Assembly: GCF_001753245.1 (NCBI RefSeq)
Contig: NZ_CP017415.1
Location: forward strand, 2,012,501 to 2,076,500
DNA: 64,000 bases
DNA from: Acidihalobacter yilgarnensis
GTDB taxonomy: Bacteria; Pseudomonadota; Gammaproteobacteria; DSM-5130; Acidihalobacteraceae
Reading direction: 5' to 3'
The position numbers were made by a program, and so were the translations under genes. Each line of letters starts with the position of its first letter. The stretch's first letter is position 1. Positions 11,869 to 26,017 of the stretch are shown piece after piece. Under the pieces are notes generated by a model. The model was not told the origin of the DNA and did no database searches. It saw only the letters and a list, made by a program, of their open reading frames with translations.

Positions 11869-13020
11869 ATGGAAGTATTAACGACCTACGCAATACTCAA
11901 AATCACCTGGTGGCTACTGCTCGGCGTTCTACTCATGGCGCTGGCCATCATGGTCGGCATGGACATGGGCGTCGGCACCATCCTGCGCTACGTCGGGCGC
12001 ACGGACGAGGATCGCCGCATCGCGCTCAACATCATCGGACCGCACTGGGACGGCAATCAGGTCTGGTTCGTCCTCGGCGGCGGCGCGATCTTCGCCGCCT
12101 GGCCGACACTCTACGGCACTGCCTTCTCGGGCCTCTACGTAGTCATGTTGGTATTGTTATGGTCGATGATCCTTCGACCACTGGGGTTTGAATACCGCAG
12201 CAAGCTCGCCTCCGCAAAGTGGCGTAACCTATGGGACTGGACCCTGTTCGTCAGTGGTTTCGTGCCAATGCTCGTTTACGGCGCGGCAATCGGCAACATC
12301 CTGGTCGGTTTTCCCTTCCATTTCGCTCAGGAAGGCACGGCGGTCTCCGTTTACACCGGTAGCTTCATCACCCTGTTCAACCCCTTCGCCATCCTCGCGG
12401 GCCTGGTCTCAGTATCTATGTCCACCCTGATGGGCTCGCTCATGCTGATGAATCGTGGCGAAGGTGCGTTGTACGAGCGTGCACGGCGCGTAGCGGGATT
12501 GGCCGGGCCGCTCGCCCTCATTCTGTTCACGATTGCGGGCATCTGGGTCGCCAACATGAAAGGCTTCGTGATCAACGGCACGCTCGACCCAGGCATGCAG
12601 GCATCGCCACTTACCAACCTACCCGTGAGCATCGTTTCTGGTGGCTGGCTGCAAAACTATGCCAATCACCCGATTCTCTGGCTGCTGCCGCTGCTCACCT
12701 ACATCAGTGTCATGCTCGCCACCCTGCTGGCACGAATGGGACGCTCGCATGTGGCTTGGTGGCTGGGCGCCCTTGGCTGGATCGGCATCCTCGGCACAGT
12801 TGCCGCGGCCACCTTTCCGTTTCTCATGCCATCGGTAACAGACCCCGCCCACAGCCTCATGGTTTGGAACGCCTCATCGAGCGCCAACACGCTCGGCTGG
12901 ATGCTCGGTTGGACGATCGTATTCGTGCCCACCATCATCGTCTACACCAGCTGGTGCTACTGGGTGATGCGTGGCAAGGTCACCGCCAAGCAAGTAGCCG
13001 AAGACGACCACGCCTATTGA
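11869..13020 (+). CDS. cydB: Cytochrome bd ubiquinol oxidase subunit II
   Basis: Second membrane subunit of cytochrome bd (383 aa). Family signatures are WWLLLGVLLMALAIMVGMDMGVG in the first helix region, NIIGPHWDGNQVWFVLGGGAIFAAWP, and WDWTLFVSGFVPMLVYGAAIGN. AGAGGA lies a few bases before ATG 11869, and the gap to cydA is 19 bp, so the two are co-transcribed. Together with CydA it forms the oxidase core. Subclass cannot be assigned from CydB alone. Confidence 0.97.
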   Translation: MEVLTTYAILKITWWLLLGVLLMALAIMVGMDMGVGTILRYVGRTDEDRRIALNIIGPHWDGNQVWFVLGGGAIFAAWPTLYGTAFSGLYVVMLVLLWSMILRPLGFEYRSKLASAKWRNLWDWTLFVSGFVPMLVYGAAIGNILVGFPFHFAQEGTAVSVYTGSFITLFNPFAILAGLVSVSMSTLMGSLMLMNRGEGALYERARRVAGLAGPLALILFTIAGIWVANMKGFVINGTLDPGMQASPLTNLPVSIVSGGWLQNYANHPILWLLPLLTYISVMLATLLARMGRSHVAWWLGALGWIGILGTVAAATFPFLMPSVTDPAHSLMVWNASSSANTLGWMLGWTIVFVPTIIVYTSWCYWVMRGKVTAKQVAEDDHAY

Positions 13021-13956: not shown

Positions 13957-14826
13957 TCAGCGCAGCAAAACCAGCGTGGCACCCGCCCACAGTATTCCAA
14001 CAGCCAGCAAGTGCGGATCACGGAACAGATCTGTGGAAGGATCACCACCACTGCCATGGCCGTATAGCCGGTACAAATAGCGGAACAAGCCGTAGATTAC
14101 GATCGGCAGGGTATAAACAAGATTGGCAGTACCCTGCATCCGAATCACCTCGGGACTCATGGTGTAGAGCCCATAGGTAATAATGCTGCCGGTAGCCGTG
14201 ATCCCGAGAATCAGGTCCAACAAAGCGGGGCTGTATTCGCTCAGCACCCGCCGCTGCCGAGTTTCGCCACCAGGCGATTCGACCTCCATCAGCTCGGCCC
14301 GACGTTTGGCCGCACCCAGGAACAGCGTCAACATGAAACCGCACAGCAGCAGCCAGCGTGAGGGTTCGATCGCAACGCCCTCGGTACCCACGAGTATGCG
14401 CAGCATGAAGCCCGCAGCGATGATAAAGATATCAAGGATCACGACGTGCTTAAGGCGCACCGAATAGGCCCCATTCATCACCACGTATCCAACCAACAGC
14501 CAGAAAGCCGTAAGCGATACCTGGAGGGATATCGCCAATCCCAGCAACAGGCAACCGGCTCCAAGCAACAAAGCCTGCAGCGGCGATACCGCACCGCTCG
14601 CCACGGGACGATGGCGCTTACGTGGATGGGCACGGTCCTGCTCCCGATCGGTCACATCGTTAAGCGCGTAAATCCCGCTGGAAGCCAACGAAAACGCCAC
14701 TGCAGCGGAAATGACCTGATACCATAAGCCCGCCTCGCCCCAGCGGTGAGAAAACACGATACCAGTGAAAACAAACAGGTTTTTGGTCCACTGATGGGGT
14801 CGCAGCAGTCTGATGTATGCACGCAT
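13957..14826 (-). CDS. UbiA-type 5-phosphoribosyl-1-phosphate:polyprenyl-phosphate transferase
   Basis: A membrane prenyltransferase-fold enzyme like mycobacterial Rv3806c (UbiA), which joins PRPP to decaprenyl phosphate as the first committed step to decaprenylphosphoryl-D-arabinose. Shows the family start IRLLRPHQWTKNLFVF, the first Asp-rich motif NDVTDREQDRAHPRKRHRP, a second region YSVRLKHVVILDIF, and about nine hydrophobic segments. ATG 14826 (MRAYIRLLRPHQWTKN) matches the family start; an upstream ATG at 14883 would overlap the divergent gene. The assignment is supported by the DprE1-like and DprE2-like genes in the same cluster. The lipid chain length here is unknown. Confidence 0.85.
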   Translation of the reverse strand: MRAYIRLLRPHQWTKNLFVFTGIVFSHRWGEAGLWYQVISAAVAFSLASSGIYALNDVTDREQDRAHPRKRHRPVASGAVSPLQALLLGAGCLLLGLAISLQVSLTAFWLLVGYVVMNGAYSVRLKHVVILDIFIIAAGFMLRILVGTEGVAIEPSRWLLLCGFMLTLFLGAAKRRAELMEVESPGGETRQRRVLSEYSPALLDLILGITATGSIITYGLYTMSPEVIRMQGTANLVYTLPIVIYGLFRYLYRLYGHGSGGDPSTDLFRDPHLLAVGILWAGATLVLLR

Positions 14827-14851
14827 GTCTGGCGATGAAGTCCATAATCTG

Positions 14852-16360
14852 ATGAGTCCGGCCGCGCGATCCGCGCGCCGCATGTTTTATGCCGCCCTAG
14901 CGGGGACGCTCATTCTAAGGCTTCTGTTCGCTGCGGTCCTGCCAATGACCGGTGACGAGGCCTATTTCGTGGTCTGGGGCATGCACCCGGCGCTCGGATA
15001 TTACGATCATCCCCCGATGGTCGGCTGGTGGCTCACTGCGCTGCTTGCGCTCGGCAAGGCCGAATGGTGGCTGCGCATGCCAGCCATCCTACTCAGTGCA
15101 TTCACCGCCTGGGGCATCATGCGCATCCTGCGCCCGCAAACCGGCGTCATGGCGTATTGGACGGCAACACTGTTCTTGATCTCGCCTGTCAGCCTCTACA
15201 ACGTCTTCATCACCACCGACACCCCGGTCATCCTGTTCATTTTTCTCAGCGGGTGGGCCTTCTATCAGGCCAGCCGACATACCCGATTGCACGACTATGC
15301 GCTAGCCGGTCTGGCCGTGGGACTCGGCATGCTCTCGAAATACTTCGAGGGCCTGATGGCCGTTGCCATCGCCTCATACTGGCTACTGATCGATCGGCGC
15401 GCCAAGGCATTCCTCGGGCTGCTTTTAGTCGCCGGTATCAGCGCCCTGTTGTTCGCTATCAATCTTTACTGGAATTACGAGCATTGCTGGGACAACTTCC
15501 TGTTCAATCTGGCCAATCGCACACATAAAGGCCTGACCCCCAGCGGTCCTCCACTCTATCTGCTCACCCTGCTCTACCTGTTTACTCCACCGTTACTGTA
15601 TGGACTCTATCGCGCACGCGGCGCCATCCGCTCACGCATTCGCGAACCCCTGGTCGGTGGTTTCGCCGCATTCGCTGGCATCCCCCTCCTCCTGTTTGGG
15701 TTACTGTCATTCAAGAACGTGATCGGTCTGCACTGGCTATTGGGTTTTTACCCCTTCGTATTCGTACTGTTCGGTGCCACCGCCGATCATCGATCGCATC
15801 GGCAGAGCCTGCGCTTCATGGCCGGCTTTTCCGCACTGCATATATTGTTGCTGGGAACCCTCTTGGCCTTGCCCGTCCACGACCTGCACTTTACCGGCAA
15901 AAACTACCCCATGGTCGTACTCGGCACGCAGACAGACAAAATATGGCAGGCCGCCCAGCCCTATGTGCAGGGCCGACACTTGGCCACGCGCGGCTACGCC
16001 TCTGCCTCCATACTCGAATATCACACAGGACACCACTTCGCTGTCTTCGGTAGCGGCTCTGACCACGGGCGTGAGGACGATGCACTCACGAACTTCATGC
16101 ACTGGAACGGACAAAATGTGCTGCTAATCAGCACCAACAACCTACCGGTTTCGGTGTATACCCCCTACTTCGATCACGTCGAAAAACGCGTCGTCGACAT
16201 CGACGGCGCGCCGATCAACCTGATCCTGGGCGACGGGTTCCGTTATCTGGCCTATCGGCGAGAAATCCTCACGCAGATACACCAGCGCTACTATCACTTC
16301 CCAGGCTGGCTACCGGTTGGCGCCTGCCCCTTCACTCAACGGTACTTTGACACCCGATGA
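14852..16360 (+). CDS. GT39/ArnT-like membrane glycosyltransferase
   Basis: A polytopic protein of about 502 residues with the N-terminal catalytic signature of PMT/ArnT-type (GT-C) enzymes: LPMTGDEAYFVVWG with the acidic pair, then LGYYDHPPMVGWW. Around ten hydrophobic segments follow, and a soluble C-terminal part from about residue 350. Such enzymes transfer a sugar from a polyprenyl-phosphate donor to a target on the periplasmic side. The neighbours suggest the donor is polyprenyl-phosphoryl-D-arabinose, but the acceptor (LPS, pilin, other) is not known. The stop overlaps the next gene by 4 bp (ATGA). An ATG at 14825 would add nine residues and overlap the divergent gene start. ATG 14852 is preferred but not certain. 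Confidence 0.8.
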   Translation: MSPAARSARRMFYAALAGTLILRLLFAAVLPMTGDEAYFVVWGMHPALGYYDHPPMVGWWLTALLALGKAEWWLRMPAILLSAFTAWGIMRILRPQTGVMAYWTATLFLISPVSLYNVFITTDTPVILFIFLSGWAFYQASRHTRLHDYALAGLAVGLGMLSKYFEGLMAVAIASYWLLIDRRAKAFLGLLLVAGISALLFAINLYWNYEHCWDNFLFNLANRTHKGLTPSGPPLYLLTLLYLFTPPLLYGLYRARGAIRSRIREPLVGGFAAFAGIPLLLFGLLSFKNVIGLHWLLGFYPFVFVLFGATADHRSHRQSLRFMAGFSALHILLLGTLLALPVHDLHFTGKNYPMVVLGTQTDKIWQAAQPYVQGRHLATRGYASASILEYHTGHHFAVFGSGSDHGREDDALTNFMHWNGQNVLLISTNNLPVSVYTPYFDHVEKRVVDIDGAPINLILGDGFRYLAYRREILTQIHQRYYHFPGWLPVGACPFTQRYFDTR

Positions 16361-17712
16361 CAAGTCCCGAAAGCATTCAGACACTCGCCGGCTGGGGGCA
16401 ATATCCCCGCTATGAATCGACCGTCGTACGGCCCGAGCGCTACCGCCTGCTCAGCGAACTGGACCATACAGACACACTGATCGCACGCGGTTGCGGCCGT
16501 AGCTACGGCGATGCCGCGCTGAGTGAGAGTGGTCGCGTGGTCGACATGCGCCGGCTGGATCGCATTCTGGACTTCGATCCAGACAGTGGCCTGCTGCGCG
16601 CCGAAGCCGGGCTCACACTAGAGGCATTGATCGACTGCCTGCTGCCACAAGGCTGGTTCCCGCCCGTGACCCCAGGCACCCGCCATGTCACCCTGGGTGG
16701 CTGCATTGCCAGTGACGTACACGGCAAGAACCACCATCATGAGGGCAGTTTTTCGACGCACCTGGATGGCTTGAGTCTGCTTGACGCCCAAGGCCACTCG
16801 CACTGGATCGACCGCGAATCCGCGCCCGATACATTCAACGCCACCACAGGCGGCATGGGATTGACCGGCATCATCGGCGAGGTCGCGCTGCGCCTGCGGC
16901 GGGTAGAAACCGCCTACATCGAAACTCGCCACCATCCGGCACGTGATCTGCGCGAACTGATGACACTGCTGGCCGATCCTGAGTATGACGACGAATACAC
17001 CGTCGCCTGGATCGACTGTCTACGCGGAGGCCGCGGCATCCTGATGCGAGGCCATCATGCCGCGCTGGAGCGCCTGCCGAACGCATGGCAACCACACGCC
17101 CTCACACCACCGGCACGCGCGACAAGACGCATACCGTTCACCCCGCCACGCGGACTGCTCAACCGCCACACGGTCGCCATCTTCAATGCGTTGTATTACC
17201 GCCTGAACTTGCGTGGCAAGACGCAGGCAGGCCTGAGCGACTACCGACGATTCTTCTACCCCCTGGATGGACTGGGAGAATGGTATCGGCTCTACGGGCG
17301 CGGTGGATTCGTGCAGTATCAATGCGTATTGCCTGAAGCTGCGGCAACGGAGGGCCTGGAAGCACTACTGGCGCGCATCCAAACCGCCGGACTATCGCCC
17401 TTCCTCGCCGTCCTCAAACGCATGGGCCCGGAGAGCGCGGCACCGCTCAGTTTCCCACTCGCGGGCTATACCCTGGCAATGGATCTACCTCTGAGTGGCG
17501 ACCGGGCGCAACAGCTGTCTGCCGAGTTAGACGCCATCACTTTGGCACACGGTGGCCGTCTCTATCTGGCCAAAGACACCTGCCTCGATGGCAGTCGTTT
17601 CCGGCACATGTACCCACGTTATCCAGAATGGCTACGCGTCAAGCGCGCCCAAGACCCGGATAACCGCTTCACCTCGGCTCTCGCCCGCCGATTGGATATC
17701 CCCAATGACTGA
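16357..17712 (+). CDS. dprE1: DprE1-like decaprenylphosphoryl-ribose 2'-oxidase
   Basis: An FAD-dependent oxidase (451 aa, family length about 460) that, with DprE2, epimerises polyprenyl-phosphoryl-ribose to the arabinose form. The FAD domain shows ARGCGRSYGDAAL and PGTRHVTLGGCIASDVHGKNHHHEGSF. The C-terminal substrate domain shows FLAVLKRMG, APLSFPLAGYTLAMDLPL and LYLAKDTC, with Lys in the AKD motif. At the position of the mycobacterial active-site cysteine (GWNICVDFP, target of benzothiazinones) this protein has alanine (Ala374 in GYTLAMDLP). Overlaps the glycosyltransferase gene by 4 bp and the reductase gene by 8 bp, so the three form a tight operon. Confidence 0.88.
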   Translation: MTSPESIQTLAGWGQYPRYESTVVRPERYRLLSELDHTDTLIARGCGRSYGDAALSESGRVVDMRRLDRILDFDPDSGLLRAEAGLTLEALIDCLLPQGWFPPVTPGTRHVTLGGCIASDVHGKNHHHEGSFSTHLDGLSLLDAQGHSHWIDRESAPDTFNATTGGMGLTGIIGEVALRLRRVETAYIETRHHPARDLRELMTLLADPEYDDEYTVAWIDCLRGGRGILMRGHHAALERLPNAWQPHALTPPARATRRIPFTPPRGLLNRHTVAIFNALYYRLNLRGKTQAGLSDYRRFFYPLDGLGEWYRLYGRGGFVQYQCVLPEAAATEGLEALLARIQTAGLSPFLAVLKRMGPESAAPLSFPLAGYTLAMDLPLSGDRAQQLSAELDAITLAHGGRLYLAKDTCLDGSRFRHMYPRYPEWLRVKRAQDPDNRFTSALARRLDIPND

Positions 17713-18445
17713 ACCCGTGCTGATCGTCGGCGCCACCTCGGCCATCGCCAGGGCGCTGTCTCGTAAACTGGCGGCCGCAGGCCACGATCTCTATCTGGCG
17801 GCCCGGGATACCGATGAACTTAGACGCCTATGTGCCGATCTGCATACGCGCTACCGCGTCCATGTCGCCTTTAGCGTCTTTGATATCGAAGATACCGCGA
17901 GCCACGACATGCTACTCGCGGCGGTTGACGAGACGCTTGGCGGCCTCGGGGGTATCGTGCTGGCCAGTGGTGCATTGGGAGATGGCGCGCGCATACGGGA
18001 GGACGATGCCATGGCGGCACACGTCCTCGCCGTCAATTTCACAGGGCCAGCACTATTGTTAGGCCGCTGTGCACGCATGCTGGAAGCAAAGGGACACGGT
18101 TTTATCATCGGCATCACCTCCGTCGCTGGTGACCGCGGTCGCCAGAGCAACTACACCTATGGTGCCGCAAAAGGTGGGCTAGCGCTTTACCTCCAAGGCC
18201 TGCGAAACCGCCTGTATCGCGCAGGCGTTCATGTCATGACGGTCAAACCCGGTTTCGTGGATACGGCGATGACCTATGGACTTCCCGGTATGTTCCTCGT
18301 CGCTTCGCCCGAGGACATCGCGACAGACATCATGCGAGGTCTGAAACGCCGGCGTAACGTGCTGTACACCCCGTGGTTCTGGTTCGGGATTATGTGGATC
18401 ATCCGCCATATTCCAGAACGGATATTCAAACGCCTGAGTCTCTGA
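17705..18445 (+). CDS. dprE2: DprE2-like SDR, decaprenylphosphoryl-keto-ribose reductase
   Basis: A 246-residue short-chain dehydrogenase. Has an unusual nucleotide motif (LIVGATSAIARALSRKLA, as in DprE2 rather than the common GxxxGxG), VLASGAL, catalytic Ser in IIGITSVAGDRG, and YTYGAAKGGL with the catalytic Tyr-Lys pair. The hydrophobic C-terminal end (FWFGIMWIIRHIPERIFKRL) also matches the family. It should reduce the 2'-keto intermediate made by the DprE1-like neighbour. ATG 17705 overlaps the preceding stop. It ends flush against the stop codon of the convergent chemoreceptor gene. Confidence 0.88.
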   Translation: MTEPVLIVGATSAIARALSRKLAAAGHDLYLAARDTDELRRLCADLHTRYRVHVAFSVFDIEDTASHDMLLAAVDETLGGLGGIVLASGALGDGARIREDDAMAAHVLAVNFTGPALLLGRCARMLEAKGHGFIIGITSVAGDRGRQSNYTYGAAKGGLALYLQGLRNRLYRAGVHVMTVKPGFVDTAMTYGLPGMFLVASPEDIATDIMRGLKRRRNVLYTPWFWFGIMWIIRHIPERIFKRLSL

Positions 18446-20559: not shown

Positions 20560-21105
20560 ATGAATGCCGTCGCCAATTTCTTTCTAGAATATATTCAACC
20601 GCTTATAAAGGATGTCGCCCCCATCTTGCATGAGTACGGACTGGTCGCTCTGGTCGGCATTCTATTCATCGAGAATATGGGGTTGGTGTTTGCGCCGGGC
20701 GAATCGATGGTGGTCGCCGCAGGTTTTCTGGCCGGTCGCGGCGTATTACCGGTCTGGCCATCCGCTACCGCAGCGATCATCGCGACCACGCTAGGCAGTT
20801 ATCTCGCCTGGTGGCTGGGCGATCGTTATGGTCATCCGCTTGTGATACGTTATGGCCGTTATATCGGCATTACGGCGCCCCGCTGGGAAAAAGCACATCA
20901 GTTTTTCAACCGATTCGGCCCGGTCGTCGTCGCCGGCGGGCGGTTTATCGTGCCCCTGCGTCAGCTTCAGGGTTACGTCGCCGGTAGCGCAGAAATGCGC
21001 TTTCGTTCGTTCGCCCTGTGGAGTTCGCTCGGTGCGATTATGTGGGTGATCTGCTGGGGTGGCATCGCCTTCTGGCTGGCTGACCAGATGCCCATCGGGC
21101 ATTGA
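20560..21105 (+). CDS. DedA-family membrane protein
   Basis: A 181-residue integral membrane protein of the DedA/SNARE-associated family. Contains the ENMGLVFAPGES motif, SYLAWWLGDRYG, and the FGPVVVAGGRFIVPLRQLQGYVAG loop with the conserved Arg residues. DedA proteins include undecaprenyl-phosphate and phospholipid flippases and affect membrane potential and division. It lies alone, so the specific role here is unknown. Confidence 0.88.
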   Translation: MNAVANFFLEYIQPLIKDVAPILHEYGLVALVGILFIENMGLVFAPGESMVVAAGFLAGRGVLPVWPSATAAIIATTLGSYLAWWLGDRYGHPLVIRYGRYIGITAPRWEKAHQFFNRFGPVVVAGGRFIVPLRQLQGYVAGSAEMRFRSFALWSSLGAIMWVICWGGIAFWLADQMPIGH

Positions 21106-24931: not shown

Positions 24932-26017
24932 ATGCGAGGAGCTGATATTCAGCAGGACGGGCTGTTCAGCACGGTGAGTCCGGAGCAACGAGTGCCGAAG
25001 GATCACCCACTTCGGCCGATCCGGCAGATGGCCGATGAGGCGCTTGCGGCATTGGATGGCGACTTCGATGCGCTTTACGCAGGACTGGGGCGCGACTCGA
25101 TCCCACCGGAGAAGCTGCTGCGGGCCCAGCTGCTGATGGTGCTGTACTCGATTCGAAGCGAACGCCAGCTGATGGAGCAGCTCGACTACAACCTGCTATT
25201 TCGCTGGTTCGTGGGCTTTTCGATGGATGACAAGGTCTGGCACCACTCGACGTTCACCAAGAACCGCGATCGGTTGCTTGAGGGCGAAGTGGCGCACCGC
25301 TTTTTTGCCCAGGTGCTCAAGCAGGCCCGGGGTGCGGATCTGCTGTCCAGGGAGCATTTCAGCGTCGACGGCACCCTGATCGAGGCCCTGGCTTCGCTCA
25401 AGAGCTATCGGCCGAAGGATGAAGACGAACCGCCGACGCAGGGCGGCGGCCGCAACCCCTCGGTGGACTTCCGCGGTGAGCGCCGCACGCGCGACACCCA
25501 TGCCTCGAAGACCGACCCGCAGGCCTTTCTCTTTCGCAAGAGCCAAGGCACGACCGCCAAGCTCAGCTACATGGGCCATCTGCTGATGGAGAACCGCCAC
25601 GGCCTGGTGGTCGATGCGCGGGTCAGTCAGGCGACGGGCCGGGCCGAACGGGAGGTGGGTGCCGAGATGGTCGAAGCGCTCACAGGCACGCATCGGGTGA
25701 CCGTGGGCGCGGACAAGAACTACGACACACGGGGCTTCGTGCGGCGGCTTCGCGAGGCGAACGCCACGCCACACGTTGCGCAGAACGACACCCGGCGTAC
25801 GTCGGCGATCGATGGACGTACCACGGCACATCCTGGCTACCGCAGCAGCCAGACGATCCGCAAGCGGATCGAGGAATGCTTTGGGTGGGCGAAGACGATC
25901 GGTGGGCTGCGCAAGAGCCGGTTTGTAGGTCCCGAGAAGCTCGACTTTCAGTTCGTGCTGACGATGGCCGCCTACAACCTGGTTCGGATGCGCAATCTGG
26001 GGGTGGCGGCATGTTGA
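24932..26017 (+). CDS. IS5-family transposase
   Basis: A 361-residue DDE transposase. The N-terminus is a DUF772-type domain (IPPEKLLRAQLLMVLYSIRS to LLFRWFVGF). The catalytic residues are likely Asp in FSVDGTLIEA, Asp in TVGADKNYDTRGF, and Glu in RKRIEECFGWAKTIGGLRK, the last carrying the usual R..E..K pattern. The frame is intact with no internal stop. It matches IS5/IS1182-like elements; the subgroup cannot be fixed by eye. Confidence 0.93.
   Translation: MRGADIQQDGLFSTVSPEQRVPKDHPLRPIRQMADEALAALDGDFDALYAGLGRDSIPPEKLLRAQLLMVLYSIRSERQLMEQLDYNLLFRWFVGFSMDDKVWHHSTFTKNRDRLLEGEVAHRFFAQVLKQARGADLLSREHFSVDGTLIEALASLKSYRPKDEDEPPTQGGGRNPSVDFRGERRTRDTHASKTDPQAFLFRKSQGTTAKLSYMGHLLMENRHGLVVDARVSQATGRAEREVGAEMVEALTGTHRVTVGADKNYDTRGFVRRLREANATPHVAQNDTRRTSAIDGRTTAHPGYRSSQTIRKRIEECFGWAKTIGGLRKSRFVGPEKLDFQFVLTMAAYNLVRMRNLGVAAC

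Follow-up and report, generated by a model that had tools for sequence, protein, structure and literature searches.

A cluster of four genes was examined in the window, that is, the whole 64,000-nucleotide stretch of Acidihalobacter yilgarnensis DNA analysed here (contig NZ_CP017415.1, positions 2,012,501 to 2,076,500 of the forward strand; its genome is G000 below). The first-pass annotation, made from the sequence alone, had reported a UbiA-type, a DprE1-like, a DprE2-like and a GT39/ArnT-like glycosyltransferase (GT) gene lying together, and all four were found, with family matches far beyond chance, at the following positions. Judged by homology, the cluster very probably makes a polyprenyl-phosphate-linked D-arabinofuranose (Araf) donor that is used outside the cytoplasm.

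13957..14826, minus strand (open reading frame 13957-14883, likely start 14826): UbiA-type synthase (DPPRS/PPPRS), putative polyprenyl-phosphate 5-phosphoribosyltransferase
14813..16360, plus strand: GT-C glycosyltransferase (PMT_2/GT39, ArnT-like), predicted pentofuranosyl (Araf) transferase
16357..17712, plus strand: DprE1-type flavin adenine dinucleotide (FAD) oxidase, putative polyprenyl-phosphoribose 2'-oxidase
17705 (ATG) to 18445 (stop), plus strand: DprE2-type short-chain dehydrogenase/reductase (SDR), putatively converting the 2-keto intermediate to the arabino form

The three plus-strand genes form an overlapping operon, GT39-dprE1-dprE2, in an arrangement as in translational coupling, with 4 bases shared by GT39 and DprE1 and 8 by DprE1 and DprE2. 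The overlap of the GT with dprE1, from which the first-pass annotation had argued, is therefore real, but it is not the only one that the GT gene makes: the GT gene and the divergent UbiA gene also share ~14 bases at their 5' ends, as is likewise the case in the same-genus genome G001. This figure takes the UbiA start at 14826 (MRAYIRLLRPHQW), which was preferred over the open reading frame limit at 14883 because the G001 orthologue starts there. No sigma-70-like promoter was found by a scan of the cluster stretch.

The UbiA-type protein matched PF01040 (2e-29) and scored 268.7 bits, above the cut-off of 234, against NF008977 (decaprenyl-phosphate phosphoribosyltransferase). Its best solved match was DPPRS of Mycobacterium tuberculosis (Mtb; 8j8j, 7.5e-32), and the NDxxDxxxD motif of cytoplasmic loop II was present, NDVTDREQD aligning with Mtb NDVRDVEAD. 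By its UbiA fold, this motif and the equivalog match, the protein is assigned at the sequence level to DPPRS/PPPRS; its G001 orthologue was 85% identical.

The oxidase scored 429 bits (2.7e-128, residues 8-447) against NF053785, the next model reaching 71 bits. Solved DprE1 chains matched it over its full length (residues 7-448) at 3e-83 to 4e-88, with M. smegmatis DprE1 at 4.1e-88, and its identity to mycobacterial DprE1 was ~40% over 402 aligned positions. Seven active-site residues were identical (Mtb numbers: His132, Lys134, Trp230, Gln336, Lys367, Tyr415, and Lys418), and three substitutions relative to Mtb DprE1 were seen (Cys387 to Ala374, Asn385 to Thr, and Tyr314 to Phe). The next best solved match, GLDH, reached 2e-7 over the FAD domain only, and alditol oxidase and others were likewise at 1e-7 or worse; an oxidase of the L-gulonolactone or alditol oxidase kind was rejected on these scores. 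The full-length DprE1 matches and the retained active site thus bear out the earlier description as DprE1-like, and the enzyme did not fall in another branch of the VAO family. In a tree of DprE1-like sequences only, built without VAO outgroups, the window oxidase lay among them, the Mtb branch being long and of unsure position. Cys387, the attachment site of benzothiazinones in DprE1, is the residue that aligns with Ala374.

The reductase scored 167 bits (5.3e-49) against the DprE2 model NF053786 and 301 bits, above the cut-off of 267, against PRK07102. Its best solved match was DprE2 itself (21gq_C, 1.1e-26), no other chain reaching E <= 1e-22, and the SDR motif YxxxK was kept, YGAAK aligning with YGSTK, in agreement with the naming of this gene as DprE2-like.

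The GT, of 515 residues with a C-terminal domain of ~150 residues, matched PF13231 (PMT_2) at 4.2e-23, whereas its similarity to ArnT was weak. Across 23 homologues, D48-E49, D65-H66-P68, R88, K176, N221, and other residues were invariant, and a profile search with the family against solved chains gave no significant match. An AlphaFold model was built from four sequences and was of low confidence (mean pLDDT 57). The best Foldseek matches of this low-confidence model were the ArnT structures 5ezm and 5f15, with and without undecaprenyl phosphate, and its leading VIA hits were all GT-C enzymes, the AftA and EmbA/B arabinosyltransferases among them. Because of the pLDDT and the four-sequence input, these matches back the GT-C class only; membership of the window GT in that class is supported by sequence and model together.

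The sugar donor of the GT was approached through co-occurrence in 369 gammaproteobacterial genomes (cut-offs: GT E <= 1e-40, DprE1 E <= 1e-40, and UbiA E <= 1e-15), of which 23 carried the GT, 69 DprE1, and 82 UbiA. DprE1 was present in 20 of the 23 GT genomes, against 4.3 expected (p = 2.5e-13), and UbiA in 21 of them, whereas 65 of the 69 DprE1 genomes had UbiA. At family level, 13 of the 16 families with the GT also had DprE1, against 47 DprE1 families among ~181 (an approximate total; p ~2e-6). Most GT genes do not adjoin dprE1, so the association is not one of linkage alone. The GT lies within the dprE1 operon in the window's genome, in G001, G002, G018, G129, and G272, and in three named loci. 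In G111, a complete genome that lacks DprE1, the GT adjoins a phosphatase-UbiA fusion on the same strand (L152:8021-11465), suggesting that the GT family takes polyprenyl-phosphate pentofuranoses in general and that the sugar in G111 is ribofuranose or another pentofuranose. The first-pass annotation had guessed that the GT uses the arabinose donor; the co-occurrence and the G111 arrangement back that guess, and this predicted use is well supported by genome comparison.

The same three results (DprE1 in nearly all GT genomes, the GT in the dprE1 operon at the places listed, and the GT beside a phosphatase-UbiA synthase in DprE1-less G111) argue against an alternative in which the donor is made as proposed but GT39 uses another polyprenyl-phosphate sugar, such as 4-amino-4-deoxy-L-arabinose or a hexose in the manner of its ArnT and PMT relatives, and a different GT-C encoded elsewhere transfers the arabinose. 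We regard this as unlikely, although the nearest named profile families of the GT are ArnT and PMT, two further PMT_2-like proteins are encoded elsewhere in the window's genome, and 49 of the 69 DprE1 genomes have no such GT.

Under the preferred reading, with arabinofuranose as the sugar of the window GT, the pathway would run in five steps. By homology, the UbiA-type synthase would transfer the ribofuranose-5-phosphate of phosphoribosyl pyrophosphate (PRPP) to a polyprenyl-phosphate carrier, which is probably undecaprenyl phosphate. The 5-phosphate would then be removed by a phosphatase encoded away from the cluster, the HAD gene of sister clusters being absent here. On residue-level homology, DprE1 would oxidise C2 and DprE2 reduce it with inversion, giving polyprenyl-phosphoryl-D-arabinofuranose. 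A GtrA-family protein (G000:C1:1327689-1328102), whose relatives are linked to dprE1, may flip this donor. Finally, the ArnT-like GT-C would place arabinofuranose on an acceptor in the periplasm; a glycan of the cell surface or part of the lipopolysaccharide (LPS) is the most likely one, and a protein is less likely.

The stand-alone GtrA-family gene (L175:7690-8103) lies outside the window, between scpB and a moaB-like gene. It was present in all three same-genus genomes (G000, G001, and G002), and G003 and G004, the two DprE1-less genomes of the family, lack a stand-alone copy. A search with it over all fetched loci gave four strong matches (93-140 bits), all directly upstream of dprE1 and in four different families (G049, G011, G055, and G050), whereas the generic GtrA fusion protein of the same genome gave no match at all. 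Since its closest relatives stand directly upstream of dprE1 in four families, the unlinked protein is a likely candidate for the donor flippase, on circumstantial evidence. Rv3789 of mycobacteria belongs to the same Pfam family, GtrA. Directly after UbiA in nine other loci (L006, L007, L008, L009, L010, L011, L012, L024, and L069) there is a PF03706 gene (flippase-like, MprF-type), a candidate alternative donor flippase in those clusters. The PF03706 gene of the window's genome was rejected as the flippase, since its product is similar to a glucosaminyl-phosphatidylglycerol flippase (269 bits against a cut-off of 320, which it does not reach).

The first-pass annotation had noted that the phosphatase step is not encoded in the cluster, and this was confirmed: sister clusters carry a HAD phosphatase, whereas the window has neither this gene nor any other linked phosphatase gene, and its synthase has no phosphatase domain. 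DprE2 stops just one base ahead of the gene that follows, leaving no room for a HAD gene. Three sets of candidates elsewhere were rejected. The HAD at G000:3059690, the closest protein in the genome to the sister-cluster HAD and the sole HAD akin to it, is a histidinol-phosphatase (NF052360, 309.6 bits); PAP2 genes, of which the genome has three, were present in all five genomes compared and showed no pattern; and a HAD gene that three genomes carry ~8 kb away from the GtrA gene is phosphoglycolate-phosphatase-like and lies in a housekeeping stretch. In the work of Kelly et al. (PMC11127046), some dephosphorylated product was still formed when the phosphatase domain carried a catalytic mutation; therefore, a housekeeping enzyme could serve for the removal of the 5-phosphate here.

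Genome scanning turned up 25 loci containing relatives of DprE1. In Gallionella/Nitrosomonadales loci and in G018, the order was (GT39)-DprE1-DprE2-HAD phosphatase-UbiA-PF03706 flippase-like gene, and the GT family of the window lay upstream of DprE1 in L008, L011, and L024 as well as in G018. These clusters have the same four enzymes as the window, but they carry the HAD phosphatase and PF03706 genes that it lacks, and their UbiA is co-directional, whereas that of the window is divergent. The UbiA gene was longer (~480-500 residues) in Sphingomonas, Methylobacterium, and several gammaproteobacterial loci; the long examples checked, in G002 and G111, were phosphatase-synthase fusions of the PRK08238 type, a layout shown to be functional in Citrobacter youngae (PMC11127046).

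All four genes are intact in the window, with 66-87% identity among the species in which they are retained. In G002, GT, DprE1, and DprE2 are intact and UbiA at the cluster locus is a short remnant (L068 ~12093-12200), whereas an intact 475-residue phosphatase-UbiA fusion is encoded elsewhere in that genome (L101:9089-10513, 653 bits to PRK08238). Such a swap would be expected if GT, DprE1, and DprE2 depended on the product of the UbiA step. In G001, a degenerate second dprE1-dprE2-HAD set (L067:8523-10134) lies inside a polysaccharide biosynthesis cluster.

Several results weigh against the arabinofuranose pathway with the window GT as its transferase. At least 10 GT39 homologues lie away from dprE1 in the genomes that carry them, neither DprE1 nor UbiA accompanies the GT in G107 and G308, and the co-occurrence of GT and DprE1 could be partly due to genome size or shared habitat. 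The search of the window's genome with the sister-cluster HAD found no replacement phosphatase, and the GtrA flippase is unlinked to the cluster and rests on genomic association in a few genomes. The oxidase and the reductase score below the NCBIfam equivalog cut-offs (429 bits against 500 and 167 against 250), so their exact substrates are not assured and the oxidase is named DprE1-like or DprE1-type. These low scores, together with the N385T, C387A, and Y314F changes in DprE1, would fit homologues of altered specificity that make a different pentofuranose, such as plain ribofuranose or another C2/C3 isomer; in the published systems xylofuranose is made by an extra SDR epimerase and ribofuranose without one (Kelly et al., PMC11127046). 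We consider such a product quite improbable, since epimerisation at C2 is known to proceed through an oxidase and a reductase acting as a pair, DprE1/E2 homologues occurred wherever a glycan contained Araf (Kelly et al., PMC11127046), and the catalytic Tyr415 and Lys418 are retained. That the pathway is decaying or inactive in the genus and only partly kept is very unlikely: the missing phosphatase, the UbiA remnant of G002, and the degenerate set of G001 would fit it, but the four window genes are intact and well conserved, and G002 has the intact fusion expected of a running pathway.

Pathways of this class have been published (Kelly et al. 2024, PMC11127046), and the D-arabinofuranose pathway proposed for the window can be set beside three known systems. 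It shares with the mycobacterial decaprenylphosphoryl-D-arabinose pathway (Rv3806c, Rv3807c, DprE1, DprE2, Rv3789, and Emb/Aft) a homologous synthase, oxidase, and reductase and a GT-C enzyme. It differs in the lack of a PAP2-type Rv3807c gene in the cluster, in having an ArnT-like GT (515 residues) where mycobacteria have Emb/Aft, and in a Gram-negative envelope without arabinogalactan, where the carrier is probably undecaprenyl rather than decaprenyl phosphate. With the group IV pilin system of Pseudomonas aeruginosa (TfpW; D-Araf in PA7/Pa5196), it has in common a Gram-negative host, a UbiA-type synthase, DprE1/E2 homologues, and a GT-C (PMC11841053, PMC11127046), whereas the GT here is PMT_2/ArnT-like and is not linked to a pilin gene. 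Three-component pentofuranose addition, known from the O1/O2 antigens of Citrobacter youngae (GT136; Kelly et al. 2024), uses a PRPP-derived polyprenyl-phosphate pentofuranose donor, a flippase, and a GT-C, all of which are predicted for the window system too, and DprE1/E2 occur in the cases where Araf is made; the window synthase, however, has no phosphatase domain, and the cluster has no linked MATE flippase and is not in an O-antigen cluster.

The first-pass annotation had named pilin, glycosylated through TfpW, as the acceptor of related genes in some strains of P. aeruginosa. Pilin of P. aeruginosa is one published acceptor (PMC11841053), but it is one of several, O antigens being others (PMC11127046), and none of the present results suggests pilin. 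In the window parts inspected no pilin gene was noticed, and no acceptor gene was common to the GT neighbourhoods across the genomes compared. The ArnT-like fold of the GT model would fit a glycolipid or glycan acceptor.

A common view holds D-arabinofuranose to be a sugar of mycobacteria, familiar above all from the cell wall of the tuberculosis bacterium, and regards DprE1 as a target for drugs against mycobacteria. The suggestion that the system is specially mycobacterial or rare did not hold up, as DprE1 occurs in 69 of the 369 gammaproteobacterial genomes, and such gene sets are fairly common in related bacteria. With DprE1-like enzymes in about one-fifth of the sampled genomes, the window case adds to the evidence for a general route. 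The pathway type is thus already known, and what is particular to the window system is a probable flippase encoded away from the cluster, a phosphatase that was not found, and an uncharacterised GT-C family. It also gives two named parts for a wider system, namely a GT-C family almost always accompanied by the donor genes and a dprE1-linked GtrA subfamily; if these are confirmed, surface D-arabinose in such bacteria would be predictable from genome sequence. We tentatively propose, at somewhat less than even chances, that the ArnT-like GT-C represents a widespread undescribed Gram-negative pentofuranosyltransferase family and the GtrA subfamily its polyprenyl-phosphoarabinofuranose flippase, which with a housekeeping phosphatase would make up a dispersed pathway of arabinofuranosylation that serves, in extreme acidophiles, a new acceptor.

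DprE1-like genes were also seen in host-associated bacteria, in L015, L016, L029, and L071 (Aquirickettsiella, a Chlamydiae metagenome-assembled genome, and a small-genome relative), and in L016 and L071 no DprE2 or UbiA was detected beside the gene.

The cluster is flanked on the left by ybgE, cydB, cydA, and surE and on the right by a chemoreceptor (MCP) gene, both sides being conserved in G001 and G002. The order surE-cydA-cydB-ybgE-[UbiA]-GT39-DprE1-DprE2-MCP is shared by G001 and, with UbiA missing, by G002. A DedA gene at 20560 was rejected as a member of the system, as it is not near the cluster in G001 or G002. To the right of the cluster region lies a transposase-like gene (window 24932-26017). 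Elsewhere in the genome, the 4-hydroxybenzoate octaprenyltransferase gene ubiA (G000:C1:124356-125089; L003, L103) is split over two frames, by a frameshift or a sequencing error, whereas its G001 and G002 orthologues are intact.

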